Below are positions 28,802 to 57,043 of a stretch of DNA of 64,000 nt, in pieces. Under the pieces are notes generated by a model that searched no databases, had not been told where the DNA came from, and saw nothing but the letters and a program-made list of their open reading frames with translations. The translations under genes and the position numbers were made by a program. Position 1 is the first letter of the stretch. Each line of letters starts with the position of its first letter. This stretch comes from a virus. The stretch is taken from the IMG/VR virus record IMGVR_UViG_3300031857_000123, positions 1 through 64,000 of that record; one strand, written 5' to 3'.

Positions 28802-28812
28802 TTATTCTTTCT

Positions 28813-29205: not shown

Positions 29206-29217
29206 AATATTCCTATT

Positions 29218-29727
29218 TTATTGTCCAGTACTGCCAAATCCGCCAGTACCACGTTGTGTGTCATTCCAAGAATCCACAAAGTCCACAATTTGAACTGGTT
29301 GGATTACTAGCTGGGCAATTCTGTCCCCAGCGTCGATTTTATAGGGGTCATCGGAAATATTTTTTAGCAAAACTTTTAAATTTCCACGATAATCTGAATC
29401 AATGACTCCAACTGAATGTGGGATTGTAATGCCTTTTTTGCCTTGCGAGCTGCGATTGTAAATAAGGCCCACAAAGCCTTCTGGAATTTTTACCGCTATA
29501 CCCGTATCAACAAGTTTTTGTTCTCCAGGATAGATTTCAATCCAACGTGCTGCACCTTCTGGAAACCACGCAAAAAGGTCTGCACCTGCATCTGTGCGGT
29601 GTGCCCGCTGTGGAAGAATTGCATCAGGCTGTACTTGGCACTGAATCTTGGGATTGTTGCGGTATGTCATAGTATTAGGATCGTATGAGGCAGTAATACT
29701 ACCGCTGCTTATAAGTGTGCTGTTCAT
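29218..29727 (-). CDS. dut: dUTP diphosphatase
   Basis: 169 residues with all five trimeric dUTPase motifs: AGADLFAW (1), RSSQGKKGI (2), GVIDSDYRGN (3), RIAQLVIQP (4) and RGTGGFGSTG (5). An N-terminal extension of about 25 residues precedes the core. It hydrolyses dUTP to dUMP, keeping uracil out of DNA and feeding ThyX. It overlaps the flap endonuclease stop by 4 nt (ATGA), and T5 likewise has dUTPase next to D15. Confidence 0.94.
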   Translation of the reverse strand: MNSTLISSGSITASYDPNTMTYRNNPKIQCQVQPDAILPQRAHRTDAGADLFAWFPEGAARWIEIYPGEQKLVDTGIAVKIPEGFVGLIYNRSSQGKKGITIPHSVGVIDSDYRGNLKVLLKNISDDPYKIDAGDRIAQLVIQPVQIVDFVDSWNDTQRGTGGFGSTGQ

Positions 29728-30569
29728 TTTGTGTAAAGTTCTAGGGTTTGATCAATGGTTATAATATTAGCTTCACCAATAGCTTCGCTACAATAAGTAA
29801 CTAAGTCCATTAGTTGATAGTTGAGTAGTAACAAGTCGCGGCACTTGTTCAACTCTTGAATGTACTTGTACTTACCGCTAAGTGGAATGTTTGCAGCAAT
29901 GTCGTAACAGCTGCCATATTCACTAACCAAGGCAACAGCTCGTTTAGGCCCAATACCAGGCACACCAAGAACGTTGTCGCCAGTATCACCCATAAGGCAC
30001 TTAACGCTAATGTAATCTTCAGGGCTAAATTCATAGTGGTCATTCCAGTTGTTGATGGTTACTTCTTTGCGGGTTACATAGCTAAATCGGCTAACGCCTT
30101 CGGTAACTAACAAGTCCCAGTCACGGTCGCTGGAGATCAGCCAAATGTCATCAAAAGGCAAGCTGGACTTTTTACTAACAATGTATGCTGCAATATCGTC
30201 AGCCTCAACGCCTTGAAAGCGCAGCACAGGATAGTCGGTATTTTCAGCAATGTGCTCAAGCGTTTTGGTGAATTCTTCAAAGAACAGTTCAAACGCAGCT
30301 TTTTCAGCGTCTGTTTGTTCTGCAAACTTGTCTTTGCGGTTTTGCTTGTATTCTGGGCTTAGTGCTTTGCGATAGCTGCTTGAGCCTTGGTCACATGCAA
30401 TAATAACGTGTGAGGCTTTGTAAGATTTCTTTAGACTATTTACTGTGCGCAGGTAGTCTTCAGCAAAATCAGTGGCTCCTGAATGCTTGTAACGAAAAGC
30501 AAGGTTTAGTGCATCAACAACAAGCAGTGTTGCTGTTGATTCAGTGGCTTGTTTGAATGTTTTACTCAT
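29724..30569 (-). CDS. 5'-3' exonuclease / flap endonuclease (T5 D15-like)
   Basis: 281 residues. Conserved acidic metal-site motifs are VVDALNLAFRYKH, VIIACDQGSSSYRK, VEADDIAAYI and LISSDRDWDLL, followed by the helix-hairpin-helix region 'GDTGDNVLGVPGIGPKRAVAL'. These are diagnostic of the FEN/5' nuclease family. It removes flaps and RNA primers during replication. A promoter lies directly upstream. The neighbour order matches the T5 D15-dut arrangement. Confidence 0.92.
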   Translation of the reverse strand: MSKTFKQATESTATLLVVDALNLAFRYKHSGATDFAEDYLRTVNSLKKSYKASHVIIACDQGSSSYRKALSPEYKQNRKDKFAEQTDAEKAAFELFFEEFTKTLEHIAENTDYPVLRFQGVEADDIAAYIVSKKSSLPFDDIWLISSDRDWDLLVTEGVSRFSYVTRKEVTINNWNDHYEFSPEDYISVKCLMGDTGDNVLGVPGIGPKRAVALVSEYGSCYDIAANIPLSGKYKYIQELNKCRDLLLLNYQLMDLVTYCSEAIGEANIITIDQTLELYTK

Positions 30570-30594
30570 TGTGTATTTTTGTGGTTAAGTGTAT

Positions 30595-30623
30595 ATTATA
30601 CACTTGATAACCCGCCAAGTCAA
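30595..30623 (-). promoter_or_regulatory. Sigma70-type promoter for flap endonuclease / dut / RTPR
   Basis: Minus strand: TTGACT at 30623-30618, TATAAT at 30600-30595, spacer 17 bp. It overlaps the end of 30620..31078. Confidence 0.8.
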
Positions 30624-31078
30624 GTGACAAATTGTGGTTGCTCATACTTTAACCAGTCTTCTAGTAGAGCAACATAAAATTCGTGAGTTTCATGATTATA
30701 GTAAACACAGCGGTAGTCTTGCGAATTAGGCATTTCGTCAAAAGCCACAAAAACTTTTGATCGGTCAAACTTAAAGATTAACAGTGGTTTCTTCTCTACC
30801 TGCTTGCCTTGCCTGACACTTTGTTCCCAGAATTCTACAAGCTGCGGACTTTTTGAAGTCAATAGGTGTGAGGTCAGGTGATCTTCTGCATAGCCTTTGA
30901 CTTCTACGCACCACAGGTTGGTTCTGCCAGGCACGTAAAGATCGCCTTTGAGCAAGTGCTTGGCATCAAGTGCTCCTGACCCAGGTATTCGTTCCCACCC
31001 TAAGCCGGTGTGTTTACGCAAAAGATCACGTACTGTGGTTTCTGTACGTGCACCTTTTGCTCTAGCGTCTACTACCAT
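30620..31078 (-). CDS. PD-(D/E)XK nuclease, Holliday junction resolvase-like
   Basis: 152 residues. 'KGARTETTVRDLLRK' (Glu in the first helix), 'GALDAKHLLKGDLYVP' (Asp) and 'LWCVEVKGY' (E-x-K) give the E...D...ExK signature of Hjc-type and related phage nucleases. It probably resolves or trims recombination intermediates next to the SbcCD-like nuclease. It shares its first base with the upstream stop (TAATG). Confidence 0.75.
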   Translation of the reverse strand: MVVDARAKGARTETTVRDLLRKHTGLGWERIPGSGALDAKHLLKGDLYVPGRTNLWCVEVKGYAEDHLTSHLLTSKSPQLVEFWEQSVRQGKQVEKKPLLIFKFDRSKVFVAFDEMPNSQDYRCVYYNHETHEFYVALLEDWLKYEQPQFVT

Positions 31079-31374
31079 TACTCAGTCGGCGTTTCCGCAC
31101 TTGTAGGTTCAGGTGTTGGCTGGGCAGTCTTGGCGGCTGGCTTAACAATTGCTGGTTTGGCTGGTTTAGCTGCTGGTGCAACGGGGGCTGGTTTAGCCTG
31201 AAAAGTGACTGTTTTTACCTCACGCTCATCAACAGAGTATGTAATGGTTCCTGACTCAGCTTCAACTGTGGCCAGTTCAGCGTCAGAAATATGTGAGTGT
31301 AATAGTAGTGGTTGGCGCACGCCATCGCGTACTATGGTGGCTTTGATGGCCTTGATTTCTTCGATTTTAATCAT
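31078..31374 (-). CDS. Hypothetical protein with Ala/Pro/Lys-rich tail
   Basis: 98 residues. An N-terminal beta-type domain (residues 1-60) is followed by a low-complexity tail of repeated PAKPA-type units. It sits one base after the SbcC-like stop, within the recombination operon. Function unknown. Confidence 0.55.
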   Translation of the reverse strand: MIKIEEIKAIKATIVRDGVRQPLLLHSHISDAELATVEAESGTITYSVDEREVKTVTFQAKPAPVAPAAKPAKPAIVKPAAKTAQPTPEPTSAETPTE

Positions 31375-31375
31375 G

Positions 31376-33214
31376 TTATACCTCTATTTGGGATATGTTG
31401 TTGCGTTTTACAACGTTGACCTTTTCTAGCAGTGGATGACTAAATCCGTGTGATACTAAAAAGGTATTCAAGTGTTCTTCCCCTAGGAGGACTTCCACTA
31501 ATTTTTCTTTGCCGTCTACATCAAGTGCTTCAACAGTCTCGTCTAAGATCAGCAAGTTGATCCTGGAACTACTTAGGGTCTGCATTAGCTTGCGAATTGC
31601 AAGTAGGGTGGCTACGTTTACACGTGCCCGCTCACCTCCACTCAATGCCAGCATTTCAATATCACGACCATTGTCAGTGATAACTACATTGAGTTTATCA
31701 CTAGCTGAAATTTTAAAACTAATCTGGAATCTACCATCACTTAAGTCTACAAGGTAGCTGTTTGTGATTTCTTCCAAGTCTTTGACCAAGCACTCTATTT
31801 TGTATGCTACCAGTCCAGTTGTTGAAAAAGTTTTATTGAGCACGTTAACAATGCTCATACGCTCTGATAACTCGTGCAGTCGACCACTATAAGTTTCTAA
31901 CTCCTCGGACATTTCTGCCAGTTGCTTACTAATAGTGTCAACTTTAGAATTATGTGCACTTACTGCTTGATTGGTTTTTTCAGCAGCTTGTATACGAGTA
32001 CGAGTAGTTTCAATACTGTACTGTAGTCCAGCAAGATCAGATTGTAGTGTAGCTTTATCTAGCACAACATCTGGCAGTTCTGTGTCAATAAGTAAGTGAT
32101 ACTTTTCCCAGTCCGCTTGACTTTGCTGTGCTTGTTGCCAAGCTAAGACTTTCTGTGCGTGTGCATTTAAGTCTTGTGTGATATCTTTGCGAGACTGTGT
32201 GGCTTTGTCCAATTTTTCTAAGGCGGCTTGCTTTATTGCAGCTTGCTCACTTACAAGTTCGGCAATCTTGTTAACGTCTATGGACTGTAAACAAGTAGGG
32301 CAATTACCTTGTAGTTTGTTCATTTTTTGGACAAACGCCTCAACATCTTTTACTGTTTTTTGCAGCTCAATTGATGTGGTATTAAGCTGTGATACAATCG
32401 TTTGTTTTGTGCTTACGTCTTCTTCTGGTTTTTCTGGCAGTGGTAAGATTGTAATCTTAGACTGTAATTGTTTGTAGGTATTGTTTTGTGCAATCTTTTT
32501 GTTGGTAGATTCTACACCCTGAATAGCTACTTCTAGTTTAGCTGCTTCTTGCAATACTTGTGAGTCTAAGTTGGGTACCTCTACTGGCTGTTTTGGGGTT
32601 AAGTCAACCTTAGAGTATTTGTCTAGCCAGGCAACAACTGTGTTTACCTGTGATTGCGTTGAGGCAATGTCTTTGCTTAACTCTTGTGCTACTTCTTTGA
32701 AGACTTCTTGTGCTTGAGTGTAACGACCCAAGTTTAGGATTTCAATAAGGAACTTTTTACGCGCAGTATCTGCAGCAGTTAAAAACTCTAGGCTTGATGC
32801 ATTACTCTGATAAACAATTTGACTAAAAGTTTTATGGTCAATGCCGATTACTTCTTCAACAATTTTATAAGTGGCTGTGGAAGTATGTGCACTAATGTCC
32901 ACACCATTTTTGTACAACTTAACCGTTTGAGTAGTGCCACGACGTGTTTCGATCTTGTACTCTGTACCATCTCGGTCAAACACTAGTTCGATTGCATAGT
33001 GCTTGTCTTTTACATACCGGTTAAGAATATCGGCCTTTTTAATGCCTTTGGAATTTTTATTGAACAGTACTTCTTCAAGCACTAGGGCAATAGAACTCTT
33101 GCCGTGACCATTTTTTCCTACAAGCTGTGTAAGTGGTGCAGCAACAAAATCAATCTTGTTGCCCTCACCATAGCTGAATGCGTTAGACCATGCTAGTGTT
33201 TTTATTGTTATCAT
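31376..33214 (-). CDS. SbcC/Rad50-like recombination endonuclease subunit (T5 D13 / T4 gp46-like)
   Basis: 612 residues. Walker A VGKNGHGKSS lies near residue 34, a coiled coil with zinc-hook 'CPTCLQ' in the middle, then the ABC signature ALSGGERARVNVA and Walker B 'LLILDETVEALDVDG' near the C-terminus. It is the ATPase half of a DNA-end-processing complex with the 33436 product. The start overlaps the glutaredoxin gene by 32 nt. Confidence 0.92.
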   Translation of the reverse strand: MITIKTLAWSNAFSYGEGNKIDFVAAPLTQLVGKNGHGKSSIALVLEEVLFNKNSKGIKKADILNRYVKDKHYAIELVFDRDGTEYKIETRRGTTQTVKLYKNGVDISAHTSTATYKIVEEVIGIDHKTFSQIVYQSNASSLEFLTAADTARKKFLIEILNLGRYTQAQEVFKEVAQELSKDIASTQSQVNTVVAWLDKYSKVDLTPKQPVEVPNLDSQVLQEAAKLEVAIQGVESTNKKIAQNNTYKQLQSKITILPLPEKPEEDVSTKQTIVSQLNTTSIELQKTVKDVEAFVQKMNKLQGNCPTCLQSIDVNKIAELVSEQAAIKQAALEKLDKATQSRKDITQDLNAHAQKVLAWQQAQQSQADWEKYHLLIDTELPDVVLDKATLQSDLAGLQYSIETTRTRIQAAEKTNQAVSAHNSKVDTISKQLAEMSEELETYSGRLHELSERMSIVNVLNKTFSTTGLVAYKIECLVKDLEEITNSYLVDLSDGRFQISFKISASDKLNVVITDNGRDIEMLALSGGERARVNVATLLAIRKLMQTLSSSRINLLILDETVEALDVDGKEKLVEVLLGEEHLNTFLVSHGFSHPLLEKVNVVKRNNISQIEV

Positions 33215-33455
33215 TTGCTAGTTTTCTTTTTAGCTCCTGCAACCCGCCAACATACACACCATCTAAAAAGATTTGAGGTACGCTGCGAGCGTCTGGAACT
33301 AGTTCAATTAAATCTTTTTTAGTATACCCGTTAATACCAAGCATACGTTCTTCAATCCGTACGCCATGCAAGTCTAGTAGTCGCTTTGCCTCAGTACAGG
33401 CTGGGCAGTTTGTTTGTGACCATACTTGCGCTGATTTATGTGAATTTTTCTGCAT
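33183..33455 (-). CDS. Glutaredoxin
   Basis: 90 residues. The redox motif CPAC (residues 18-21) and the cis-Pro region 'ARSVPQIFLDGVYVGG' identify a glutaredoxin. It probably reduces the class II reductase. It is wedged between the two nuclease subunit genes and overlaps both, by 20 nt upstream and 32 nt downstream, so its level is tied to theirs. Confidence 0.85.
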   Translation of the reverse strand: MQKNSHKSAQVWSQTNCPACTEAKRLLDLHGVRIEERMLGINGYTKKDLIELVPDARSVPQIFLDGVYVGGLQELKRKLANDNNKNTSMV

Positions 33456-34392
33456 GATTTTGCATCTCCTGTAGAACTTTGTCTACTGTGGTTTCGGGTA
33501 ATTCTAGAATATAGGTTACATACTCTCGAACTTCCTGATTTAGGGTCATCTCTGCATCAAGCATCAGGGCGGAGTCTGTATCACGTTTTAGCACTTTGGT
33601 AGCGATTAGCTCTGAATCGGCTAGTTCTCCGAGTTCTTGCATATCACCTTGGACTTCGTAAACGGTGTGATCAAAGTCCGTAGCCACTGGCGTCTCGTCA
33701 GCGGCGATTGTTCGCTTGATAAGTTGCGGCAAGTTGAATTTAAGCCACGTATGTTCCAAGCTATCAGCATCAAGCAAAATAGCACCGGTATCAACCCTGG
33801 AACGATGAAAGCTAGTAGTATAAGGGCTACCAGGGTAAAGAATATTTCTTTGAGAGTTTTCATAACTGTGTAGGTCACCAGCTAGCACAACTTGCCAACG
33901 GTTAAATAAGTCTAGATCGACTTCGGGCTTTACGTGTGGAGGAATCTCGCCACGAACGTGTGTGCATAAGATACGACCACCAAAATCACGACCATGTTTT
34001 TCGTAGTCTTTGAGCTTATTGTAAGGAATAATGTCTAAGTCAAATCCTACATTTTCATAGTAATCATCAAGCATGCTTACTAGTGGATTTAAGCGGTGCG
34101 TGGACTTTTTAAGATTGGTTAGAAACGTTGAGTCTTTTTTCAACATCTCATGATTGCCAGGGTAGATTAGTGTAGGCTTGTGAAAGCTTTCTACAAAGTC
34201 AAAGTATAACTCAACTTCGTCCATGGTAGGCAATCGGTCAAACACATCACCGCCTACAATTACCAGGTCTGCACTATGTTGCATTTCACTAAACTGTTCG
34301 CAGAATAAGCGGAAGCGATTACGTGACCACTCCACTGGAACATTCTTTTGACCTAGTTTGATGTGTACGTCTGCTGTAAATAGTATTTTCAT
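33436..34392 (-). CDS. SbcD/Mre11-like nuclease subunit (T5 D12 / T4 gp47-like)
   Basis: 318 residues from ATG 34392; an upstream TTG lies inside a terminator hairpin and is less likely. The metallophosphoesterase motifs are ADVHIKLG, GGDVFD, YPGNHE, and GDLHSYE, with the conserved metal-binding Asp and His residues. With the SbcC-like partner it trims double-strand ends. The weak ribosome site suggests modest expression. Confidence 0.92.
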   Translation of the reverse strand: MKILFTADVHIKLGQKNVPVEWSRNRFRLFCEQFSEMQHSADLVIVGGDVFDRLPTMDEVELYFDFVESFHKPTLIYPGNHEMLKKDSTFLTNLKKSTHRLNPLVSMLDDYYENVGFDLDIIPYNKLKDYEKHGRDFGGRILCTHVRGEIPPHVKPEVDLDLFNRWQVVLAGDLHSYENSQRNILYPGSPYTTSFHRSRVDTGAILLDADSLEHTWLKFNLPQLIKRTIAADETPVATDFDHTVYEVQGDMQELGELADSELIATKVLKRDTDSALMLDAEMTLNQEVREYVTYILELPETTVDKVLQEMQNHAEKFT

Positions 34393-34403
34393 TGTTTTAT
34401 CAG

Positions 34404-34441
34404 ACAAAATAGCCCGCAAGCTTTTTAGGATTGCGGGCTAT
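34404..34441 (-). terminator. Terminator after the SSB-like gene
   Basis: TAGCCCGCAA pairs with TTGCGGGCTA across an 11-nt loop. On the minus strand the stem is followed by TTTTG. It would attenuate transcription between the SSB-like gene and the nuclease operon. Confidence 0.75.
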
Positions 34442-34447
34442 ATATTA

Positions 34448-35089
34448 TCAACCTAGTTCTTTGACTGCTTCGGATGCTGCTGTGTCAGCCTCATCACCTT
34501 CGTCGGAGTTAGATGCTACTTTTTCCAATAGGGCTAGTACTTCGGCTTCTGTTGGGCGAGGGTACTTTTCATCAATTGATTTAGCTGCTGTTGCGGCTTC
34601 ACGCTCGGCATCGGTTAGTGGACGTGGTTTGCAACGCAATACACTCAAGTCGTAGCTGATATTAAAAGCCAGTGGTCCTGTTTTGGTACGCTTGAAAACT
34701 ACATCCCAACCTGTATCGAAATCGGTAGGATCACCCAAATCTTCGGCCGCTGAAACAATTTGTTCAAACAGTTTCTTTTTCAAGTTAAGCGCCTTGACTT
34801 TGCCGTCCTTAGGGTCAATACAGTTAACTGTATACGACCACGAGCACTTCAAGTCTGGGTAGAAGGAGGGAACGTGATCTTTTTCGATGTTGTCGAATTT
34901 TTCTTTGTCACGAGAGAAAGCCAAGCACTCAACTGGAATGTCTTTGTTGTTAGCCCCTTTGAGCCAGTAGACGTAGCGTGGCAGAACTCCGCCCACTAGT
35001 CTAACTGTGTTTTCACCGTCTTTGTATTCATAAGCCTCAACTTTGTTTGAGATTGCTTTGCCTTTGGTATTTTTAAATGAGATTGCCAT
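34448..35089 (-). CDS. Single-stranded DNA-binding protein, gp32-like
   Basis: 213 residues. A core rich in aromatic and basic residues ('RLVGGVLPRYVYWLKG', 'DLKCSWSYTVNCID', 'GWDVVFKRTKTGPLAFN') fits an OB-fold phage SSB. The C-terminus is acidic (SNSDEGDEADTAASEAV), the usual tail that contacts polymerase and helicase. It sits between helicase and nuclease genes. Assignment rests on composition and context. Confidence 0.7.
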   Translation of the reverse strand: MAISFKNTKGKAISNKVEAYEYKDGENTVRLVGGVLPRYVYWLKGANNKDIPVECLAFSRDKEKFDNIEKDHVPSFYPDLKCSWSYTVNCIDPKDGKVKALNLKKKLFEQIVSAAEDLGDPTDFDTGWDVVFKRTKTGPLAFNISYDLSVLRCKPRPLTDAEREAATAAKSIDEKYPRPTEAEVLALLEKVASNSDEGDEADTAASEAVKELG

Positions 35090-35090
35090 G

Positions 35091-35468
35091 TTAGTTGTTT
35101 TCGTATTTAAAGTAAATTTTGTTGTCTGTGATTGTGAGCAGCGGATTGTGTTTTAAGGCATCTAAGTCAATGTCTTTGAAATAACTCAAGTCTAGGTAAA
35201 CTACTCGGTAAAGTTTGTATAAGCTATAGTCACGCCTTCCTGCAAGTCTAATGTATTGCGCTTTGTGTGCAATATCGCAAGTTTCGGAGAAAAGAGGTTG
35301 GGCATTTAACAAGAAGCTGTGACCCGACAAGTTTTTAAAACTATTTAGTTCGTGGTGGTTTTTCGGTATAAGCTTTTTGCTAAAGTGCCTTTCCAGCATA
35401 CTTAACATCAATTTAGGGTCGCAATTTGTTTCTGTTTCTAATAAATCCAGGTTAAAAAAGAGTGCCAT
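35091..35468 (-). CDS. Hypothetical protein (D11 position)
   Basis: 125 residues, soluble, mixed alpha/beta, rich in Leu, Asn and Tyr (RDYSLYKLYRVVYLDLSYF). It is the first gene after a promoter and is followed by the SSB-like gene after 1 nt. The position between the D10-like helicase and D12-like nuclease matches T5 D11; sequence similarity could not be tested. Confidence 0.5.
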   Translation of the reverse strand: MALFFNLDLLETETNCDPKLMLSMLERHFSKKLIPKNHHELNSFKNLSGHSFLLNAQPLFSETCDIAHKAQYIRLAGRRDYSLYKLYRVVYLDLSYFKDIDLDALKHNPLLTITDNKIYFKYENN

Positions 35469-35487
35469 AATGATTAACTTAGACTAT

Positions 35488-35516
35488 ATTATAGCATAAA
35501 GACCACACTGCTGCAA
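35488..35516 (-). promoter_or_regulatory. Sigma70-type promoter for 35091 / SSB
   Basis: Minus strand: TTGCAG at 35516-35511, TATAAT at 35493-35488, spacer 17 bp, preceded by AAATTTACAC. Confidence 0.85.
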
Positions 35517-35528
35517 GTGTAAATTTTA

Positions 35529-36839
35529 TCATGCTGTTATTACCTGCCAGCCTTTACGTAAGTAGAGCGCCAGCCTATCGTTGTTTTGTTTTTTATCTGC
35601 GTAACCAGCAAAGTTAATATCTACAACTAGGGGATCTAACTTGCCTTCGTGTAATCGCTGTACACGACCCACAATTTGTTCTAGCAAACTGTCGTTGCTC
35701 ATTGGGGCTGCAAGGATAACACAGCTGAGCGTGTTAATAGATATGCCTTCTGAAAAGATTTGCCGGCTCCCACAAATGGCTTTTTTGGTTCCATCAAGTA
35801 CTTGTTGCTTGATGTGTTGTCTGTCTTCGTATTCTGTGTCGCCTGTAACAACCGCGCAATCTTCGCCAATGTATTCTTTCACTTTGTGTAAAAACTCCAC
35901 TCGATCAGCAATAACCAATACCGAGTGACCTTCTTGCATATGCATTAATGCAATAGTTGCAATAAACTGCCTGTACTTTTCTGACTCTAGCAATTCCGTG
36001 ACTTTTTCAACCCAAGGAACGCCTGGTTTTAGCGTAATCCCAGATTTAACAATGTGCACTGTGGGTGTTAGTGTGTTAGACTGCGGTGGTTTATAAACAA
36101 CCGGCCCAAAGTAGTCACGGAACAGAATATGTTTACCGTCTTTGCGAATCATTGTACCTGACAGCGCAATACGGTATCGTGCGTGAAAAGCGTCCACTGT
36201 TTGTGCAAACGTAGTGGCAGGACAGTGGTGGGCCTCATCAAGGATAATACACCCAAACTCCTTAGATAAATCACCAGCAATTTTAGCAAGGGTCTGTATG
36301 TTGGCAACTGTGATAAAGTGGTCTTCATAGTCTATCTGTCCTCCGCCGATTACTCCAGGTTTGTGTCCAAACAGCACTTCGATTTCTTCACACCACTGAT
36401 CTCTGAGAGCAGCCGTGTGTGTGATAACAAGGGTCTTTTGACCAAACTTGTGTGCAAGGTGTAGTGCTGTAAATGTTTTACCCCATCCAACCAGTGCGTT
36501 GATGAAACAAGTATCGTCGATTGGGTCATATACTACCTGCTGCTCTGGTCTTAGTTCAAACTTAGGGTCAGGAAAAGGTATATGGTCTACTATGCGTTTG
36601 TCAATGACCTCGTAGTCGTCTGGAACCAAGTCTAGACGGCCTTGTGGGATGCTCAAGATGCCTTTGGGCAGTACTTTGTAGTTTTTGATAGTTTCAACTG
36701 TAGCAAATTTCTTTGACCCAGTGTCTTTTTTGATTTTGTATGTAAGCTCACTGATAACCTTTTTGGTATGCTCAACACCAGGGTTATCCATGTAAATACG
36801 ATTTGATATAATTGCTTTAGGCACTAGACCATTCTCCAA
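35529..36839 (-). CDS. SF2 helicase (T5 D10 / UvsW-like)
   Basis: 436 residues. Motif I ALVGWGKTFTALHLA, motif II ILDEAHHCPA, motif III RIALSGTMIRKDG, motif VI EQIVGRVQR. An N-terminal domain of about 85 residues precedes the motor. It probably unwinds branched recombination intermediates. It overlaps the previous gene by 16 nt. T5 D10 has the same neighbours. Confidence 0.9.
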   Translation of the reverse strand: MENGLVPKAIISNRIYMDNPGVEHTKKVISELTYKIKKDTGSKKFATVETIKNYKVLPKGILSIPQGRLDLVPDDYEVIDKRIVDHIPFPDPKFELRPEQQVVYDPIDDTCFINALVGWGKTFTALHLAHKFGQKTLVITHTAALRDQWCEEIEVLFGHKPGVIGGGQIDYEDHFITVANIQTLAKIAGDLSKEFGCIILDEAHHCPATTFAQTVDAFHARYRIALSGTMIRKDGKHILFRDYFGPVVYKPPQSNTLTPTVHIVKSGITLKPGVPWVEKVTELLESEKYRQFIATIALMHMQEGHSVLVIADRVEFLHKVKEYIGEDCAVVTGDTEYEDRQHIKQQVLDGTKKAICGSRQIFSEGISINTLSCVILAAPMSNDSLLEQIVGRVQRLHEGKLDPLVVDINFAGYADKKQNNDRLALYLRKGWQVITA

Positions 36840-37285
36840 CTATCGGGCTTGTGTGCGTCACAAAAACCATAAAAAATATGTGCCATGCCTAATTGCAATA
36901 CTCTGGCATAGTGTTGATTTTCACCAGGCCGCTGCATGGCTTTGAAGCGGCTAGACAGACCTTGCAATTCAAACACACACCCTAGCCCTGCCGCAGGTAA
37001 AACTTGTTTGATCTTGCGTGTAGTCAGTTTGGCGCGTGTGGTTTTTTCATAGTGAAATACTCTGCCACTATTATCAATAAACCAAGTAGTAGACTTGGCT
37101 AATTTTACCAAGTCTGCTAAAAAGTAGATAGCGGTGCGAACTGGAAATAGCGTTACCTTAGGGTCAGCTTTTAAACGCAGCCTGCGCATACCCAAAGTAG
37201 TTCCAGGTATGCTGGCGTCGTCTACTACGCGCACAGTTGCTGTTTCAGAATTCAGCTCATCAACATAGTGCGTGTAGTAGTACAC
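36824..37285 (-). CDS. Hypothetical protein between polymerase and helicase
   Basis: About 153 residues from a GTG at 37285. The frame is open further back into the polymerase gene but only to a TTG, so the start after the polymerase stop is preferred; AAGAG lies 9 nt upstream. Features include 'RRLRLKADPKVTLFP' and 'STTWFIDNSGRVFHYEKTTRAKLT'. No family was recognised. The start is uncertain. Confidence 0.55.
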   Translation of the reverse strand: MYYYTHYVDELNSETATVRVVDDASIPGTTLGMRRLRLKADPKVTLFPVRTAIYFLADLVKLAKSTTWFIDNSGRVFHYEKTTRAKLTTRKIKQVLPAAGLGCVFELQGLSSRFKAMQRPGENQHYARVLQLGMAHIFYGFCDAHKPDSWRMV

Positions 37286-37313
37286 AACCCCAGACTCTTG
37301 TCTGGGTTCATGC

Positions 37314-39602
37314 TCACCTAGCCTGAACACGGGCCAGTGTATCTCCGATAATTTCGTATGTTTCTGTAAAGTGTCCAAAACTATAATCCTCGCCAATATC
37401 TTGATCTACACCAATTGGGGTGTTTGGGATTTCACAGCCCCACTGGTGTTGAGTGTTACGCTTTAGGATCTCGCAGTATTCCACCACATCTTCGTCTTTT
37501 ACAAGCGCAACAATCGAGTCATGAACCAGCATAAAGATTTTAGCATCTAGCTGTTTCTCTTTAACTTCTTGTGCTGTTCGCATAGCGCCAAGTAAGTTAA
37601 CATCACTGGCAAGTGACTGTACTTCAGCGTTGATTCCGCTACGGACTTCGTGAGCTGCGATACCTTTATCTGCGCTAAACACATTAGGTAGTCTGCGTTT
37701 CCTGCCAAAGAATGAGTATGTATAACCATTTGTTTGAATAAAGTTTTTGCGATCTTCAAGCCACTTTTTTAGCTTGTTGAATTTTGTAAAGTATTGTTTA
37801 ATATCGTCACGAGCCTGCTCAACAGGGTAAACCTCACCAGTGGCTTTTGACACAGTCTGCGATACTTTGTTAGCACCTGAACCGTACAAAATACCAAAAG
37901 AGATAGCTTTAGCCGATTGACGCATACTTCCAAACAGCTTTTTAACGTCTTCAACCGCACATGGCAATGAGAACACCATTTTAGCAATTGTTGAGTGAAA
38001 GTCGCCGCCTGAACTAAAAACTTCTTGCAGGTTCTTGTCACCGCTTAGCACAGCCGCATAGTACATTTCAGCTGTGGTCAAGTCTTGCGATACAATCTTG
38101 TAGCCTGCTGGAGCCTGGATGCAACCTTTGATAATAGGATCGTCGCGAGGTATTTGCTGAGCGTTGAACTTCCCAGAACTACTAAGCCTACCGCTAGTAG
38201 TAAATATAAGATTAAAATTTGTACGAATACGACCATCGCGGTCAATTTCTGGTAGAATCTTTTGAATATAGGTGTTTTGAATCTTGCCAAGCTGACGAAC
38301 CTTTAAGATAGCTGCTGGTAGTGGATGTTCATCTGATAGTTCGCCAAGTACTTCTGCGTCAGTTGAGACTGCACCAGTAGCTGTTTTCTTGCCAGTCGGG
38401 TTAAGACCCAAGTAGTCAAAAAGCACAACACGCAGCTGCATAACACTGTTGGGATTAAAGATTTTGCCACTGTCACGCTCGTATTGTTTTACTGCATCAA
38501 ACGAGTACACAACCTGCTTGGCAGCCTCAATTTCAGCATCAAGGTATTTACTAGCAGCAGCCATGCGTTCTGTGCTCATAGGAATACCAACTTCTTCCAT
38601 GTCCATCAAGAACAGTGTACCAGGAATCAATATTTCCGAATAAACTTTACGCAGTTTGTCGTTGGCTTGTACAATGGGCCAAAACTTGTGGAAAAGTTCG
38701 TATGTAACGGCTGTGTCAATCGAAGCGTAACGGCTAATAGTGTCGAATGGGATAAGGTCATAGGTAAAGTCATCTTGCAGCAAACCATTGGCTGCACAGT
38801 ATGCCTTTTTAAAGTCATCAAGTTCACTATCATAGTCGCCGTAATCGGTGTATTTTAAGGCCAATGGCTTCAAACCATGTGAATCAGTTTCATCTAACAC
38901 ATAGTGCATGACCATTGTGTCGTGTACACGACTACGAGGAAAACTAATGCCAAGGTGATACTCAATCATCTTGTAGTCAAACTTCATGTTGTGAAACACT
39001 GTTGTGTATTCATTAGCAATCTTTTGCAACAAGTCCATGCACTCGTCGTCTAGGCAGTCTGTTAAGATATAACGACCATGCTTGGTTTTGTAGCTTAGTG
39101 ACAAACCAAGTACGTAACCGTCTCGTGGATAAAGACAAGTTGTTTCCGTGTCCCAGGCAACATAACCTCGGGCATTGTCCATTACTTCTCGCAAAAATTC
39201 TTTGGCTTCATCAGTGCTGTCAATACCCTTAAAATCACCTTGTACACTAGGCTTTAGTTGACCTTTTACGTACTTGTGAATACGATCCACAGCACGCTGA
39301 AAGTCAGGTTTGCCTTCAGGCTTGAAGCTCAGCATTGCTGGATTTGAGATAGCAATAAACTTGTCGTTGACAAGCTGTCCAGCCATGTTGGTTACCGAGG
39401 TAATCTTGGCGTATTCTTTGGCAGCTTCTGCGCCGACTAAGACTACGAAGTCGTATGGCTCCAAGTCTACTACCAAGTCTACATCTTTTTTCAGCAATTT
39501 GGTAATTGGCACCGAACTCATGTGGTACTGGTCATACTCAAACTCAAAGTAGTCTGAATAACGAGTACGGTTGGGTGCTTTGTCAATAACTGCAATTTTC
39601 AT
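37314..39602 (-). CDS. DNA polymerase I-family polymerase (T5-like)
   Basis: 762 residues. An N-terminal region precedes a 3'-5' exonuclease with DEDD motif 'VAWDTETTCLY' (near 150), then 'VFHNMKFDYKM'. The polymerase domain shows motif A 'SQDLTTAEMYYAAVLSGD', motif B 'RQSAKAISFGILYGSG' and motif C 'LVHDSIVAL'. There is no 5' nuclease domain; that activity is the separate 29724 gene, as in T5. It is the replicative enzyme of the module. Confidence 0.95.
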   Translation of the reverse strand: MKIAVIDKAPNRTRYSDYFEFEYDQYHMSSVPITKLLKKDVDLVVDLEPYDFVVLVGAEAAKEYAKITSVTNMAGQLVNDKFIAISNPAMLSFKPEGKPDFQRAVDRIHKYVKGQLKPSVQGDFKGIDSTDEAKEFLREVMDNARGYVAWDTETTCLYPRDGYVLGLSLSYKTKHGRYILTDCLDDECMDLLQKIANEYTTVFHNMKFDYKMIEYHLGISFPRSRVHDTMVMHYVLDETDSHGLKPLALKYTDYGDYDSELDDFKKAYCAANGLLQDDFTYDLIPFDTISRYASIDTAVTYELFHKFWPIVQANDKLRKVYSEILIPGTLFLMDMEEVGIPMSTERMAAASKYLDAEIEAAKQVVYSFDAVKQYERDSGKIFNPNSVMQLRVVLFDYLGLNPTGKKTATGAVSTDAEVLGELSDEHPLPAAILKVRQLGKIQNTYIQKILPEIDRDGRIRTNFNLIFTTSGRLSSSGKFNAQQIPRDDPIIKGCIQAPAGYKIVSQDLTTAEMYYAAVLSGDKNLQEVFSSGGDFHSTIAKMVFSLPCAVEDVKKLFGSMRQSAKAISFGILYGSGANKVSQTVSKATGEVYPVEQARDDIKQYFTKFNKLKKWLEDRKNFIQTNGYTYSFFGRKRRLPNVFSADKGIAAHEVRSGINAEVQSLASDVNLLGAMRTAQEVKEKQLDAKIFMLVHDSIVALVKDEDVVEYCEILKRNTQHQWGCEIPNTPIGVDQDIGEDYSFGHFTETYEIIGDTLARVQAR

Positions 39603-39624
39603 TTATTATTCCTTGTGATACTTT

Positions 39625-39653
39625 ATTATAGCGTATCTGAGCTAACATTTCAA
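39625..39653 (-). promoter_or_regulatory. Sigma70-type promoter for the polymerase gene
   Basis: Minus strand: TTGAAA at 39653-39648, TATAAT at 39630-39625, spacer 17 bp, 23 nt upstream of the polymerase start. Confidence 0.87.
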
Positions 39654-39655
39654 GT

Positions 39656-40510
39656 TTATTTATTAATGTACTCTGCAATGCTTCGTACATTCTCACTATC
39701 TAAATCGCCAGGGTCTACACCATCTGGTAGGTCTACTACTTCCGTAATAAAACCTTCAGCTTCGATAATAGGCTTGAGTAATTGGGCGGCCTTGCGACCC
39801 GCTTCGTCACCATCGAATAGTAGATATACGTGCGTAATACCTTGAGCCTTAAATGGAAGTAACTTCGATTTCGTTTCGTTTTGTAGGGTATTGGTGCCAA
39901 ACGCGCAGACAACATTTTCACAACCTTTGTCATATAAGTTAAGCATGTCAAACATGCCTTCTACAATTACCATTGAACTATAACCACTTGGCAAGTGGCT
40001 GGGAAATAGTGGCATCTTAACACCTACAGGATAGTTAACATACCTGGGATTGCCTTGTGACATTGTATGTCGTGCCACAAACACAATATTTTTACCAGTA
40101 ATGTCTTTGATTGGAAACACAATACGGTCTTGTAGCTTTTCAACTTGATTTGTATAAAAAGCCTCAAAATGCTTGAGTGTTTGTGCACTAACGCCACGAA
40201 ACACTTTGGTCCAAGGTGTGTAGCCACTAGGCAATTCTAGTTCTTGACCAAATCGTTTTAGTACTTCCAGCTTTTCTTTAAGTGCCATAATCTTGATGGG
40301 TACTGGGTTTGTAAAAACTCCATAATACTTAAAAAGATTGGTTTTAAAGCCACAAGCAAAGCAATGTGCTACGCCAGAAACTTTGTCAACACGAAAGCTG
40401 GGGTTTGAGTCACTATGATCTGGGTTTAGGCATTTGATAAGATAGTCACGACCTGAAACAGAGAACTTCAGGTCGTTTTTCTGGATAAGTTCTAAGACTG
40501 GGTCACTCAT
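39656..40510 (-). CDS. DNA primase (zinc finger and TOPRIM)
   Basis: 284 residues from ATG 40510, whose first base is shared with the helicase stop (TAATG). N-terminal zinc finger 'CLNPDH...HCFACG' (about 24-55), then TOPRIM motifs 'MVIVEGMFDMLNLY' and 'VYLLFDGDEAGRKAA'. It synthesises RNA primers with the DnaB-like helicase. It lacks the long C-terminal helicase-binding part of bacterial DnaG. Confidence 0.9.
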   Translation of the reverse strand: MSDPVLELIQKNDLKFSVSGRDYLIKCLNPDHSDSNPSFRVDKVSGVAHCFACGFKTNLFKYYGVFTNPVPIKIMALKEKLEVLKRFGQELELPSGYTPWTKVFRGVSAQTLKHFEAFYTNQVEKLQDRIVFPIKDITGKNIVFVARHTMSQGNPRYVNYPVGVKMPLFPSHLPSGYSSMVIVEGMFDMLNLYDKGCENVVCAFGTNTLQNETKSKLLPFKAQGITHVYLLFDGDEAGRKAAQLLKPIIEAEGFITEVVDLPDGVDPGDLDSENVRSIAEYINK

Positions 40511-41898
40511 TATGCATTCCAAGGTAAGTCTGCACCGCTATCTGATACCGGCACCACTTCCTCTTGACCTTTCTTTACTTTTTTAACTGGTTCTTTAGCT
40601 GCTGGGCGATCCACACTCTGTGGCGAAATGCGTAGTGAGTCCCAGTCAATTGGGCACGTAAACGCCATTTCTTTACCGCCTCGGATTTTAGTGGTTTGAA
40701 AAGAAATTGCACTGGTTTCTTTATCATGAGCTTCCATTGTAAGTGCGATATCTGCGGCATCCAAAATACCTTTGGCAAAACGTGCTTCTCCGTTAGCGTC
40801 GATTTGATATGGACTAACCATAACGATCTCGTACTTACGGGCAAGGTTTTTGAGTTTCTTGGACACTTCAATTTGAGGTTTCCAATCATAGATATCTGTG
40901 CCTTCAATCTGAATTTGATTTAAGTAGTCAACTACTACCAGTTTTAGTTTATCGCCAAACTTGGCTTTAGCTTTGCCGATATGCAAGTCGATGCTGCTTA
41001 GGGTCAAGTCACGATCATCAACAATAATCATTTGATTATCTGCTTTTAGCACACAGTTTCGTACTAAGTTTTCTTCAAACTTGTAGCGGTCGCGGTGACG
41101 TAAAAACTCCGAGACTAAGTCACCGCTATTCTCAAACATTTCTGCTCGGGCTCGAACTACTCGTAGCAGTTCGTCATCTGTTAGTTTGTGTTGTTTTAAG
41201 TTTTGTAGGTTTACATTTGCCAGGATACTAAGATTACGTTCCATGGTCTCTTTAGCAGTCATCTCAATACTAAAGTAAATACTACTGTTACCAGACTCAT
41301 ATTGATTAACAAAAAGATTGCTACTAGCAATAGATTTGCCAGATCCCCGTTTACCTCCAATGAGTATGAGTTCTTGGCGAGCCACGCCACCAAGCACACT
41401 GTCAAAACCGTTATTAAGGCCAAGATAAACACGTTCTTTTTCCAAATCTTCTGGGTGGCTGAACATCATCATGTCAGCCATTGTAAACACTTTTTCTGAT
41501 GTGTGGGTCTTTTCTTCAATTGTTAATGCAATTGAAGCTAAGTTTTCTTTTATTTCATTTGTATCGTAGAGTGGTAACTTGTCTACGAATTTATCTAGTA
41601 ATTTTACCGTTTCGTTTTGAGTATACTGGTCGATTAATGCGTCCAGGGCTACTTCTGCGGAAACGTCTGGTACCTCGGTTAACCGGAGAGTTGCCAGTGT
41701 TTTAGACGCCGGACCCTCCCTTAAGGTTAGCTCAAGATCGTCAAAAGACGGAATTGCGCTGTACTTTTCGTAGTATTTGTTTACTACGCTGTACAAGGAA
41801 GAATACGCAGGGTCTAAAAATACCAACTTGAGTTTAGCCCAAATATCTAGGTTACGCTCAGTTAATAATTTGTTTAAGACTACTGCACTAGTATCCAA
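40510..41898 (-). CDS. Replicative DNA helicase, DnaB-like
   Basis: 462 residues. An N-terminal helical domain (1-140) is followed by a RecA-type motor with Walker A 'LILIGGKRGSGKS', Walker B 'LKLVVVDYLNQ', and 'VMVSPYQIDANGEARFAKG'. The C-terminal tail is Lys-rich. It is coupled to the primase by TAATG, matching a primosome pair. Confidence 0.9.
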   Translation of the reverse strand: MDTSAVVLNKLLTERNLDIWAKLKLVFLDPAYSSLYSVVNKYYEKYSAIPSFDDLELTLREGPASKTLATLRLTEVPDVSAEVALDALIDQYTQNETVKLLDKFVDKLPLYDTNEIKENLASIALTIEEKTHTSEKVFTMADMMMFSHPEDLEKERVYLGLNNGFDSVLGGVARQELILIGGKRGSGKSIASSNLFVNQYESGNSSIYFSIEMTAKETMERNLSILANVNLQNLKQHKLTDDELLRVVRARAEMFENSGDLVSEFLRHRDRYKFEENLVRNCVLKADNQMIIVDDRDLTLSSIDLHIGKAKAKFGDKLKLVVVDYLNQIQIEGTDIYDWKPQIEVSKKLKNLARKYEIVMVSPYQIDANGEARFAKGILDAADIALTMEAHDKETSAISFQTTKIRGGKEMAFTCPIDWDSLRISPQSVDRPAAKEPVKKVKKGQEEVVPVSDSGADLPWNA

Positions 41899-41900
41899 AG

Positions 41901-42200
41901 TTACCCTACTTTCGCTTCATTGTCAATAATAACTTGATCTACGATTTCAGTTACTTTGTACATAACTTGCTCTCGCAGCTTTTTTAAATCTTGTTGATAA
42001 GTTACGCCACTATCATACAGCAAACTCAGTTGTTCATGAGTTATCAACTGCTGTAGGCCAAAATAAATGTGGTCGTAAGCCATTGTAGATTCTGGTGAGA
42101 TTTCTACTTGTGCGGCTTTTCCATAATTGTGCATAGCCTGTTTGACGACTTCTTCCATCGTAAACGACTCGTTGTCATGGTATGTAATTGTAACACGCAT
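41901..42200 (-). CDS. Hypothetical protein
   Basis: 99 residues, preceded by AGGAGGTCAAGAGT, a near-perfect ribosome site. Mainly helical and acidic. It ends 2 nt before the DnaB-like gene, so it is the first gene of the primosome operon. Function unknown; a helicase-loading role is possible but unsupported. Confidence 0.6.
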   Translation of the reverse strand: MRVTITYHDNESFTMEEVVKQAMHNYGKAAQVEISPESTMAYDHIYFGLQQLITHEQLSLLYDSGVTYQQDLKKLREQVMYKVTEIVDQVIIDNEAKVG

Positions 42201-42220
42201 ACTCTTGACCTCCTAAACAG

Positions 42221-42254
42221 AAAAAGCCCGGGAGCTTTATGGAACTCCCGGGCT
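42221..42254 (-). terminator. Terminator after 42271..43020
   Basis: AGCCCGGGAG pairs with CTCCCGGGCT around a 10-nt loop, followed on the minus strand by TTTTTC. Confidence 0.92.
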
Positions 42255-42270
42255 ACTGATTTAAACCAAA

Positions 42271-43020
42271 TTAAGCAGCGGCTTTGGCTTCTGCTTTGGC
42301 TTTTTTAGCTGCGCCGTCATAGTCAGCAACTTTGATACCACGACGAGTCAACAGGGTACGCAGGCCACGCTCTGTTTTGTCAACTTTAGCAGCAATTTCT
42401 GCAACAGTCATAGTGTGGATGCTAGCACCCAAGGCAGTTACTTGGTCAACAGACTCTTTAGCATGAGATTCTTTTTGTGCAGGAATCTTAGCAATCTGGC
42501 CTTTACGTGTCAGGCTCAAAGCCTTACCACGAACTGAGGCAACAGTTTTGTTGAGTTTGGCAGCGATTTCTTCGATATAGCTACCTGCGTCAGCCATACG
42601 AACAAAAGTAGCTTCTTCGGCTTCTGTGTAAGTACGAGCAACTTCAACTTTTTCAGCAGGCTTTACTGAGCCAGTCAACTCAAGGGCCAACAGCTTGCCT
42701 TGAATTTGCTTTGCAGTGAACTTGCCGTCAGCAAAGTTTTCAGCAATATCTTTGTAGGTTAGGTTACCAGCATTTGCGTTAACGAAATCGGCAAGATCAG
42801 CGCCTTCGTCAGCAGTAAATGCACTTGTTTTTTCTTTTGCAAGACTAGCAACTTCACGATCTAGTTGACGCAGTTTGCTGGCAATACTGCGAGTGGTTTT
42901 ACCCAACTGCTCAGCAGCACGCTCAACGCTATCAACGCTAACAGGGCTTTCGCTGCCAACGATTTGCATCAATTGGTCAACAGCTTCGTCAGACCAGTTT
43001 TTAGTTGTTTTTTCAGTCAT
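42271..43020 (-). CDS. Multi-repeat DNA-binding regulator (T5 D5 position)
   Basis: 249 residues containing about four related helix-turn-helix/SANT-like units ('VERAAEQLGKTTRSIASKLRQL', 'YIEEIAAKLNKTVASVRGKALSL', 'TVAEIAAKVDKTERGLRTLLTRR') and an Ala/Lys-rich tail. T5 D5, a DNA-binding protein needed for late transcription and replication, lies in the same neighbourhood. It overlaps the ligase C-terminal gene by 8 nt and is followed by a strong terminator, so it may be made in quantity. A smaller relative is encoded at 46391..46753. Confidence 0.65.
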   Translation of the reverse strand: MTEKTTKNWSDEAVDQLMQIVGSESPVSVDSVERAAEQLGKTTRSIASKLRQLDREVASLAKEKTSAFTADEGADLADFVNANAGNLTYKDIAENFADGKFTAKQIQGKLLALELTGSVKPAEKVEVARTYTEAEEATFVRMADAGSYIEEIAAKLNKTVASVRGKALSLTRKGQIAKIPAQKESHAKESVDQVTALGASIHTMTVAEIAAKVDKTERGLRTLLTRRGIKVADYDGAAKKAKAEAKAAA

Positions 43021-50344: not shown

Positions 50345-50447
50345 CCATATATAACCACACTAGGTGTCAAGGCTTCTCACTACGCCTGTTCGCGACTAGT
50401 ACACTAGACACCACCGTGGAGTTAAGGCTTAGTGTGGTTATATATGG
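50345..50447 (-). repeat. Intergenic hairpin 1 (18-bp perfect arms)
   Basis: Arms CCATATATAACCACACTA and TAGTGTGGTTATATATGG. The minus-strand 5' arm begins with the CCA of tRNA-Ser(TGA); the 3' arm ends at the ribosome site of 50179..50337. Inside, GGTGTC pairs with GACACC. Confidence 0.9.
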
Positions 50448-50536
50448 CGGGTAGCAGAGGAGTCGAACCCCATCCCGTTTCCGAGAACCCAGTTTTCAAG
50501 GCTGGTCGCAGGACCAACCCCGCTGCATTACTACCC
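50445..50536 (-). tRNA. tRNA-Ser(TGA)
   Basis: GGGTAGT/GCTACCC acceptor, anticodon loop CTTGAAA, long variable arm TCTCG-GAAA-CGGGA, encoded GCCA. 92 nt, class II. Confidence 0.9.
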
Positions 50537-51137: not shown

Positions 51138-51221
51138 ACTATATTTAAGTACTCTAGCTAGCCAAGGAGCCCTTGCTGTTAGGCAAGGTGGGGTTTTAAC
51201 CCAAAAGTACTTAAATATAGT
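51138..51221 (-). repeat. Intergenic hairpin 2 (16-bp perfect arms), 3' side of tmRNA
   Basis: ACTATATTTAAGTACT pairs perfectly with AGTACTTAAATATAGT. It begins one base after the last recognisable tmRNA stem and ends before the ClpP-like start. Inside are GGGTT/AACCC and CCTTGC/GCAAGG hairpins. Arms resemble those of hairpin 3. Confidence 0.9.
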
Positions 51222-51265
51222 GCCAGTATTCTGTTACGAGGAACTGGCCAAACCCTAAGCAGCAA

Positions 51266-51298
51266 TTAAGCTGCTAAAGCGTAAACTTGATCGTTTGC
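51266..51298 (-). other. tmRNA tag-peptide reading frame
   Basis: Codons GCA to TAA encode ANDQVYALAA. The terminal ALAA is the degron read by host ClpXP and related proteases. Confidence 0.93.
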
Positions 51299-51419
51299 GT
51301 TTATTTTTGTTTTGCTTCTGCAAATGGGAACAACCCCAATCTTAAGGCTTCTGCTTTACCTAGTTGTCTACGTCTCTACTCTTAGCCCAATCGATCCTGT
51401 GTCAGGCCCATCAAAAGAA

Positions 51420-51494
51420 AACTGAATTCAGGCTCTATGTCCTGACCATATGCTTACGCCGTGATGCACGTTGTACACCGTGTCAATTTTCTTT
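51420..51494 (-). other. tmRNA intervening segment with long stem
   Basis: The segment between CCA and the mature 5' end starts AAAGAAAATTGA and ends TCAGTTTTCTTTTGAT. Together with the flanking acceptor bases it forms an 18-position helix with one U-G and one mismatch. It is removed in two-piece tmRNAs. Confidence 0.8.
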
Positions 51495-51554
51495 TGGTGG
51501 ACCTGGCGGGCACTGCCCCCGCGTGTCGAACTCTTTTGGGTCGGCTTCATACAA

Positions 51555-51646
51555 CCATATTTAAGTACTCTAGTTTGGATTCAAACCTTGTTCTAGTCTT
51601 GTCGATCTGCGCTTCTCACAGTGCTGACCAGAGTACATAAATATGG
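51555..51646 (-). repeat. Intergenic hairpin 3 (17-position arms), 5' side of tmRNA
   Basis: CCATATTTAAGTACTCT against AGAGTACATAAATATGG, one U-U mismatch in the minus-strand RNA. It fills the whole space from the CCA of tRNA-Thr to the first base of the tmRNA acceptor piece. A GTTTG/CAAAC hairpin lies inside. Confidence 0.9.
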
Positions 51647-52820: not shown

Positions 52821-52989
52821 GCTGCTTACGATATACAGCGTGGCACTATCGTGGCCACCGATTGGATTACGGACGCTCTAACCGGAACGGCACGGACCTA
52901 AGGCAGGTTTTGGCGGTCTTAAGGGGTAACGATCCCCTTCTACAGCAGTGACAGTGCTGTGTGCGTCCATGAACACTTTAAGACCAGAT
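52821..52989 (-). ncRNA. Structured non-coding segment between tRNA-Leu and hairpin 4
   Basis: No reading frame fits. On the minus strand: GGTCTTAA/TTAAGACC, ACAGCA/TGCTGT with 7-nt loop, AAGGGG/CCCCTT, GTGGC/GCCAC and GCTG/CAGC. The last two loops contain complementary ACGATA and TATCGT. It starts right after the CCA of tRNA-Leu(TAA). No known RNA class recognised. Confidence 0.5.
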
Positions 52990-53078: not shown

Positions 53079-53165
53079 TGGTGGTTGCTCTCCGACTCGA
53101 ACAGAGAAGGCCAGCGGCAAGAGATTTACAGTCTCCCCCCGATACCATTACGGGACTAAGCAACC
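53079..53165 (-). tRNA. tRNA-Tyr(GTA)
   Basis: GGTTGCT/AGCAACC acceptor, anticodon loop CTGTAAA in stem GGAGA/TCTCT, class II variable arm, encoded ACCA. First gene after the promoter at 53178-53206. Confidence 0.92.
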
Positions 53166-54476: not shown

Positions 54477-54684
54477 AATCGCAATCTTTTGGGCAGACAG
54501 TAGAGTTTCGATCTCTTTCTACGACTTTCACAGAGTCGGGTGCTCCCATTACACTACCTGCTGCATTTTTGGGTTTTGCATGAATAGCTGCTTCGGCAGC
54601 CTTACACGCGGTTAGGGTATCAAACTGGCAACGGCCTCGTTCGCCGTATTTGTACTTACCATTGTTGCACTTTATACAGGGCAT
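54463..54684 (-). CDS. Small Cys-containing phage protein
   Basis: 73 residues, with AAAGGAATAT upstream. 'MPCIKCNNGKYKYGERGRCQFDTLTACKAAEAAIHA' is a recognisable small phage protein type with CxxC; a second Cys group (CPKDCDC) ends it. The UGA stop uses bases of tRNA-Phe. Function unknown. Confidence 0.65.
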   Translation of the reverse strand: MPCIKCNNGKYKYGERGRCQFDTLTACKAAEAAIHAKPKNAAGSVMGAPDSVKVVERDRNSTVCPKDCDCNSS

Positions 54685-56398: not shown

Positions 56399-56567
56399 TG
56401 GTGGATCGGGCAGGACTCGAACCTGCTAACTAAAATTATACAGCCCCGTAAGCAATATATTCGAATTCAGCCCACCTGTAACTTCATGTTTGCGACAGAG
56501 GAAGTAATCCTAGGGTGAAGGGGTTGTATGCCGGCTCTATGCTTTAACCATGTTAAGCTACCGATCC
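56399..56567 (-). ncRNA. tRNA-shaped gene with a 113-nt central region
   Basis: A perfect acceptor (GGATCGG/CCGATCC), D-arm (GCTT/AAGC with GG in loop), T-arm (GCAGG-TTCGAGT-CCTGC) and encoded ACCA are present. Between D- and T-arm lie 113 nt where a tRNA has about 22-36. This part contains ATACAACCCC facing GGGGCTGTAT (one mismatch), with AGGA/TCCT and TTCACCC/GGGCTGAA inside. No normal anticodon arm could be drawn. It may be a tRNA with a small intron or a new tRNA-like RNA. Confidence 0.7.
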
Positions 56568-56667
56568 ATATATTAGTACTTATTTTAACACAAGGGCGAT
56601 TAACTCCCACCGGATATATAGATTATCACTCTTTTGACGGCACGTATGTATAAGTACTAATATATGG
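56566..56667 (-). repeat. Intergenic hairpin 7 (18-bp perfect arms)
   Basis: CCATATATTAGTACTTAT pairs perfectly with ATAAGTACTAATATATGG. The final GG of the minus-strand 3' arm are the first two bases of the tRNA-shaped gene. Confidence 0.9.
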
Positions 56668-56845
56668 AGACCATCCCTAAATGGTCAACATATAGTCTTA
56701 TTACTGAGGGCGACAGCCCCACTGTATCTTAGAATATCCAAACATCCCTTCTACAGCGGCAGGGCGTTCTTTTGGTTGACGGGGCTTACACCCGCCTCGA
56801 ACGTAACTTATTCCTAGGGGCTAGAACTTGTCAGAGGAACGGGAC
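56668..56845 (-). ncRNA. Structured non-coding segment upstream of hairpin 7
   Basis: No frame fits. On the minus strand: GACCAT/ATGGTC, GGGC/GCCC tetraloop, TTCCT/AGGAA, CGTTC/GAACG around GGCGGG/CCCGTC. The stretch from GTTCGAGG to ACCAAAAGAA (about 56800 to 56763) resembles the tmRNA acceptor piece in order and spacing. Its role is unknown. Confidence 0.4.
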
Positions 56846-57043
56846 TTAATTACTATTTTTATAGACTCTGAGTGCTTCAGCGTCAAGGCTAGCATAAACT
56901 CGGAAACTATCGCGACCAACCTTGTCATAAAGATCGTTTGCCATTTGCTCAAGATTTACAAGTTGCTCGATTGAGATCAAGGTACAAGTAACATATCGTG
57001 ACAAGAAAGCATCAATTAAAAAATCGCGTGAATAGCCTGCCAT
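56846..57043 (-). CDS. Small helical protein
   Basis: 65 residues, helical, acidic. A promoter with -10 at 57065-57070 lies just upstream. Function unknown. Confidence 0.6.
   Translation of the reverse strand: MAGYSRDFLIDAFLSRYVTCTLISIEQLVNLEQMANDLYDKVGRDSFRVYASLDAEALRVYKNSN

Follow-up and report, generated by a model that had tools for sequence, protein, structure and literature searches.

The gene at positions 56399..56567 (minus strand) of the DNA analysed here probably encodes a structured tRNA-like RNA that does not decode. The window, a stretch of 64,000 nucleotides, comes from an IMG/VR virus record of 68.9 kb; its DNA polymerase and its DNA ligase most resemble those of T5-like phages, Demerecviridae. 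The absence of a decoding function is well supported because the arm standing in the place of the anticodon arm is conserved, an anticodon and U33 are not conserved, and the tRNA set is complete elsewhere. A preceding sequence-only reading had offered such an RNA as one of two possibilities, the other being a tRNA with a novel small intron.

The gene comprises 169 nt including an encoded CCA and scores 168.5 bits (E 5.9e-48) with the covariance model R1. Acceptor, D-arm, T-arm and CCA had been described as canonical, which is borne out. The acceptor strands GGATCGG (56561..56567, minus) and CCGATCC (56403..56409, minus), the latter followed by A73 and CCA (56402-56399), covary (AU/GC, UA/AU/CG). 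The D-arm GCTT..GG..AAGC (56541..56558, minus) exhibits covariation in 2 of 4 pairs, and the T-arm GCAGG TTCGAGT CCTGC (56410..56426, minus) was assigned by homologue comparison and covariation. A D-arm to T-arm distance of about 113 nt could be confirmed, with a structured arm of about 90 nt replacing the anticodon arm. The Rfam search gave no family of its own for this RNA; the homologue L035 reaches 35.6 bits with the Rfam tRNA model, the alignment having a gap of 102 nt where the anticodon arm would be.

Downstream of the D-arm, the comparison of homologues shows a short A/U-rich stem, which is weak and variable, then a six-nucleotide segment and helix A of 9–10 bp. The helix A strands ATACAACCCC (56520..56529, minus) and GGGGCTGTAT (56438..56447, minus), already named as a long helix in the sequence-only reading, form nine pairs and one A–C mismatch; this helix covaries, is present in the MFE structure too and is free of mismatches in several homologues, e.g. 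CTATAACCC/GGGTTATAG. About two bases are unpaired 3′ of its 3′ strand, and the 5′ strand of the asymmetric internal loop is a hexamer palindrome, GCCGGC in the window (56530..56535, minus). Helix A encloses a three-way junction formed with the helix B domain and a 3-bp helix, both supported by covariation. The variable helix B domain (CACC..GGTG, 56473..56517, minus) ends in a hairpin whose CGCAA-type loop is conserved, and the third helix (GGC/GCT, 56448..56472, minus, including a 3-nt joiner) carries the conserved loop UGAAUUCGAAUAYA. This loop holds a second palindrome, TTCGAA (56460..56465, minus), which is also a T-loop motif. Single-sequence folding recovers helix A, yet with z -1.5 against shuffles the fold is not significant, and the case above chance therefore rests on the conservation and covariation in 18 homologues together with the covariance model.

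These homologues were obtained by scanning viral contigs with DNA patterns and with a neighbouring 65-aa ORF. The 18 distinct sequences from 24 IMG/VR records are 164–185 nt long, and every one has acceptor, D-arm, T-arm and CCA. They are located in large tRNA arrays, nearly always flanked by tRNA-Arg(UCU) and tRNA-Pro. Relatives with a plain tRNA, in which the insertion would appear as decayed sequence, were looked for, and the structured insertion is kept in all homologues found. In the condensed helix alignment, 99.8% of the cells of 31 pairs are paired and changes on both sides occur in 19 of the 31; since the helices were assigned by hand on condensed sequences these counts lean towards the proposed structure, but the controls lie far below. 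The helix covariation score amounts to 0.464, compared to 0.165 for shuffled alignments (0/500) and at most 0.078 with slid partners. As a tree shows the homologues to be related and mosaic, not every coupled change counts as an independent event. Covariation extends to acceptor, D-arm and T-arm, pointing towards selection of the tRNA-like body together with the insertion. The covariance model assigns 144–175 bits to family members and no more than 46 bits to ordinary tRNAs.

Outside this set the element was not encountered. The pattern used found no match in a bacterial and archaeal collection of 84,980 genomes, and with the covariance model the element is absent from T5, TrudiGerster, Gary, VPT02 and Akh-2. 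A blastn search for isolates matched nothing past the T-arm. In viral contigs, a broad scan for gaps between D-arm and T-arm returned just adjacent tRNAs besides the known members, and the element is absent from the more distant relatives of the 65-aa ORF (L050-L053).

Both palindromes are self-complementary in 18/18 homologues, and among 119 six-column windows they are the only two with this property, all others reaching at most 9/18. The hexamer occurs as GCCGGC, TCCGGA, GCTAGC or GTCGAC, and the loop centre as UUCGAA or, in one clade, UUGCAA. Changes on both sides are seen in 4 of the 6 palindrome pairs with zero broken cells (100% kept), and the covariation score of 0.358 compares to 0.101 after shuffling (0/500). 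Even the adjacent central bases change together, from CG to GC in the loop of L028, L041 and L042 and from CG to UA in the hexamer of L022, the one sequence with a central change there. For OLE L9.3 and GOLLD L21a, intermolecular pairing was argued from coupled change of adjacent bases (PMC12286853). Since adjacent bases are unable to pair in one chain, we infer homotypic pairing, and we regard dimerisation or oligomerisation of the tRNA-like RNAs via their palindromes as an evenly balanced proposition.

The palindromes could also have other causes in a monomeric tRNA-like RNA, a reading which we consider rather unlikely. UUCGAAU fits the T-loop consensus and would explain the loop without dimers, the hexamer might be a tight YYRR turn with Watson–Crick-like closing pairs, or the segments might pair with another RNA. 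In principle, pairs 31-36 and 32-35 might close a two-nucleotide turn, and few types of coupled change were observed. However, the central adjacent bases remain without an intrachain partner, at C56/G57 the sequence UUGCAAU deviates from the T-loop consensus, and palindromes in 18/18 homologues with four sequence types are improbable by chance (ca. 3e-4, for three independent double-changed types).

Self-association would bring the RNA close to the homo-oligomeric “ornate” RNAs GOLLD, ROOL and OLE, whose symmetric kissing segments show palindromic covariation; the genes for GOLLD and ROOL lie in phages close to tRNA islands (PMC12286853). The self-complementary segments described here covary in the same manner, adjacent bases included, which is the feature taken to mark homo-oligomers (PMC12286853), and with GOLLD and ROOL the element shares the phage origin and the tRNA-island setting. 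In contrast, GOLLD, ROOL and OLE are far larger (many GOLLD >800 nt) and have no tRNA body, and oligomerisation of the present RNA is read from its sequence. No match was obtained between the element and the Rfam models for GOLLD and ROOL. We tentatively propose, as a possibility somewhat short of even, a small tRNA-capped phage RNA of 164–185 nt that forms homodimers or oligomers via its two self-complementary segments, a compact counterpart of GOLLD and ROOL on a tRNA scaffold in a tRNA island, perhaps presenting or sequestering tRNA-binding host factors.

RNAs of a comparable kind are annotated in phage T5. The record AY543070 lists RNA1 and RNA2 as “tRNA-like stable RNA with unknown functions” and RNA3 as putatively tRNA-like, as well as the stable RNAs RNA2H, RNAI, RNAIII, RNAIV and the 719-nt RNAX. 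In the region searched (28000-42500) none of the T5 stable RNAs matched an Rfam family of its own, while a stretch of RNAX scores as tRNA; an assignment of RNAX to GOLLD was rejected by Rfam. RNAX holds tRNA-like segments, and RNA1 resembles an RNA of tRNA-Leu type whose anticodon arm contains an insertion. A literature search found no study of T5-type tRNA-like stable RNAs, with older T5 papers mostly lying outside its coverage.

Similar to RNA1 and RNA2, the element belongs to a tailed phage with a T5-like replication module, lies within a tRNA array or region and has no decoding anticodon. It further shares with them a tRNA-like acceptor and T-arm, extra structure replacing or inside the anticodon arm and the lack of an Rfam family. 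The two T5 RNAs are, however, shorter (125 and 144 nt), and RNA1 retains a long variable arm that the element does not have. The element might be an orthologue of RNA2 that has diverged past recognition, which would concern its descent and is compatible with a non-decoding tRNA-like RNA; we consider it unlikely. The phages are of the same kind by polymerase and ligase, and RNA2 (32959-33083) likewise lies upstream of tRNA-Pro behind a structured leader, with sequence related to the region in hundreds of T5-like records. RNA2 also has a tRNA-like frame (acceptor, D-like arm, T arm), and an inner hairpin of its longer arm carries a UUCGAUU loop. On the other hand, the palindromic hexamer, the three-way junction and the encoded CCA are missing from RNA2, and R1 with filters off finds its T-arm only, with 10.6 bits, below many ordinary tRNAs. 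As this match is confined to the T-arm, homology is not shown, and the non-decoding RNA is assigned to a new family within a kind that is already known from T5 RNA1 and RNA2 and is uncharacterised.

A decoding tRNA split by a small intron of unfamiliar type, with helix A and the part enclosed by it being removed, is improbable. The anticodon loop is a frequent site of tRNA introns, and extra sequence at this place is shared with group I introns of bacterial and phage tRNA genes. After excision the remaining tRNA would have a loop of 7 nt, which in the window reads CCGGC|AA. The best argument for this reading is that the unpaired flanks of helix A sum to 22–23 nt in most homologues, which is what a normal tRNA needs between D-arm and T-arm. 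However, the stem left after excision is imperfect, the resulting triplet varies (GGC, GGA, AGC and others), and C instead of U occupies position 33 of the would-be loop (CCGGCAA, CCGGAAT and others). Splice rules defined relative to conserved landmarks give U33 in at most 2/18 and a single anticodon in at most 7/18 homologues. Neither the RNA as it stands nor a spliced form thus offers a conserved anticodon in a 7-nt loop with U33, and the exon ends at the would-be splice site are not conserved as an anticodon loop. The isotype called by intron-aware ARAGORN (-i) changes from homologue to homologue (Arg, Cys, Ser, Thr, Tyr, Val, Ala, Glu, Gly, Pro, and none in some), so that no consistent tRNA identity emerges. 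With about 90 nt the insertion is too short for a group I intron, has no recognisable core and yields no consistent spliced anticodon, and no Rfam group I match was found with E values up to 10. The suggestion of a novel small intron thus finds no support.

That suggestion had leaned on the apparent lack of tRNA-His and tRNA-Asp, which proved to be mistaken. Both are present (tRNA-His 54490-54563, tRNA-Asp 52911-52985), and the array supplies all isotypes including two missed by ARAGORN whose anticodons were read by eye: tRNA-Tyr(GUA) (53079-53165, minus), with promoter-like sequence upstream, and tRNA-Ser(UGA) (50445-50536, minus). Since the array is complete, no codon family needs an extra tRNA, and an interpretation of the element as the missing isotype was rejected. 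The tRNA-Ser(UGA) is 88% identical in DNA to a stretch of Pseudomonas phage PHB09 that carries no annotation; it is also related to tRNA-Ser genes annotated in Mycobacterium phages. A 92–94 nt “tRNA-Ile(UAU)” with a long variable arm was noticed in several relatives (L014:1360-1451, L009, L024, L030 and others) and is uncalled in the window.

Decay of a tRNA into a pseudogene with an inserted element might be proposed since ARAGORN without introns and the Rfam tRNA model at its gathering score both miss the gene, but compensatory changes in acceptor, D, T and all arm helices among the relatives make it most improbable.

The element resembles tmRNA in its tRNA-like ends and in having a long helix instead of an anticodon arm. 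It differs by its real D-stem and by the lack of a conserved tag frame, and the tmRNA models score the family with no more than 16.6 bits compared to a cut-off of 47, covering the T-arm/acceptor end only. A tmRNA-like tag in the window (GAA TTC GAA TAT ... TAA) was rejected because the homologues differ in frames and stops. The array contains a two-piece (permuted, alphaproteobacterial-type) tmRNA at 51175-51587 (minus) with the predicted tag ANDQVYALAA; tags of relatives are, e.g., ANDNTYALAA and ANDTQFALAA. An HDV-like fold starting at GCCGGCAU was also discarded, its P1′ strand being missing.

Upstream lies a leader hairpin (56565..56668, minus) with an inverted repeat of 19 bp free of mismatches (56650-56668/56565-56583). 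This hairpin reaches into the first bases of the tRNA-like RNA and belongs to a type also seen among the other spacers of the array. Between 48300 and 56700 the spacers between tRNAs are long hairpins with stems of 16–23 bp and loops of 52–146 nt. Most of them have the ends CCATAT..ATATGG, abutting the CCA of the preceding tRNA and the beginning of the following one, and they are perhaps processing signals. The leader is preceded by a structured module of about 190 nt (56661..56846, minus) with the closing helix AGUC/GACU and candidate kissing loops UCCCUA/UAGGGA. This module is conserved in many relatives (L009, L012, L013, L014, L019, L022, L030), occurs as variants in L035 and L041 and is replaced by a short hairpin in others; it is possibly another unclassified RNA.

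Transcription of the tRNA-like RNA probably proceeds together with the tRNA array, starting from a sigma-70-like site on the minus strand, for which TTGACG-17-TATAAT at 57093-57065 is a candidate (a closer one occurs in L024). Both ends would then be matured in the manner of a tRNA, presumably giving a stable RNA whose extended arm stands in the place of the anticodon arm. The palindromes would let two or more copies base-pair, and the working form would probably be a homodimer or small oligomer presenting tRNA-like ends. A likely role is to engage the tRNA-handling machinery without decoding. Whether as decoy or as scaffold for tRNA-handling factors is a guess, and a decoy for host factors or nucleases acting on tRNA is a speculation to which we attach little probability.

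For the annotated tRNA-like stable RNAs, which T5 shares with hundreds of relatives, this family supplies comparative structure, a case for a non-decoding function and a testable self-pairing hypothesis. If dimerisation is true, it would extend natural RNA-only homo-oligomers to a small and tractable RNA with a tRNA body, and it would give another reason why phage tRNA arrays may exceed codon supply.
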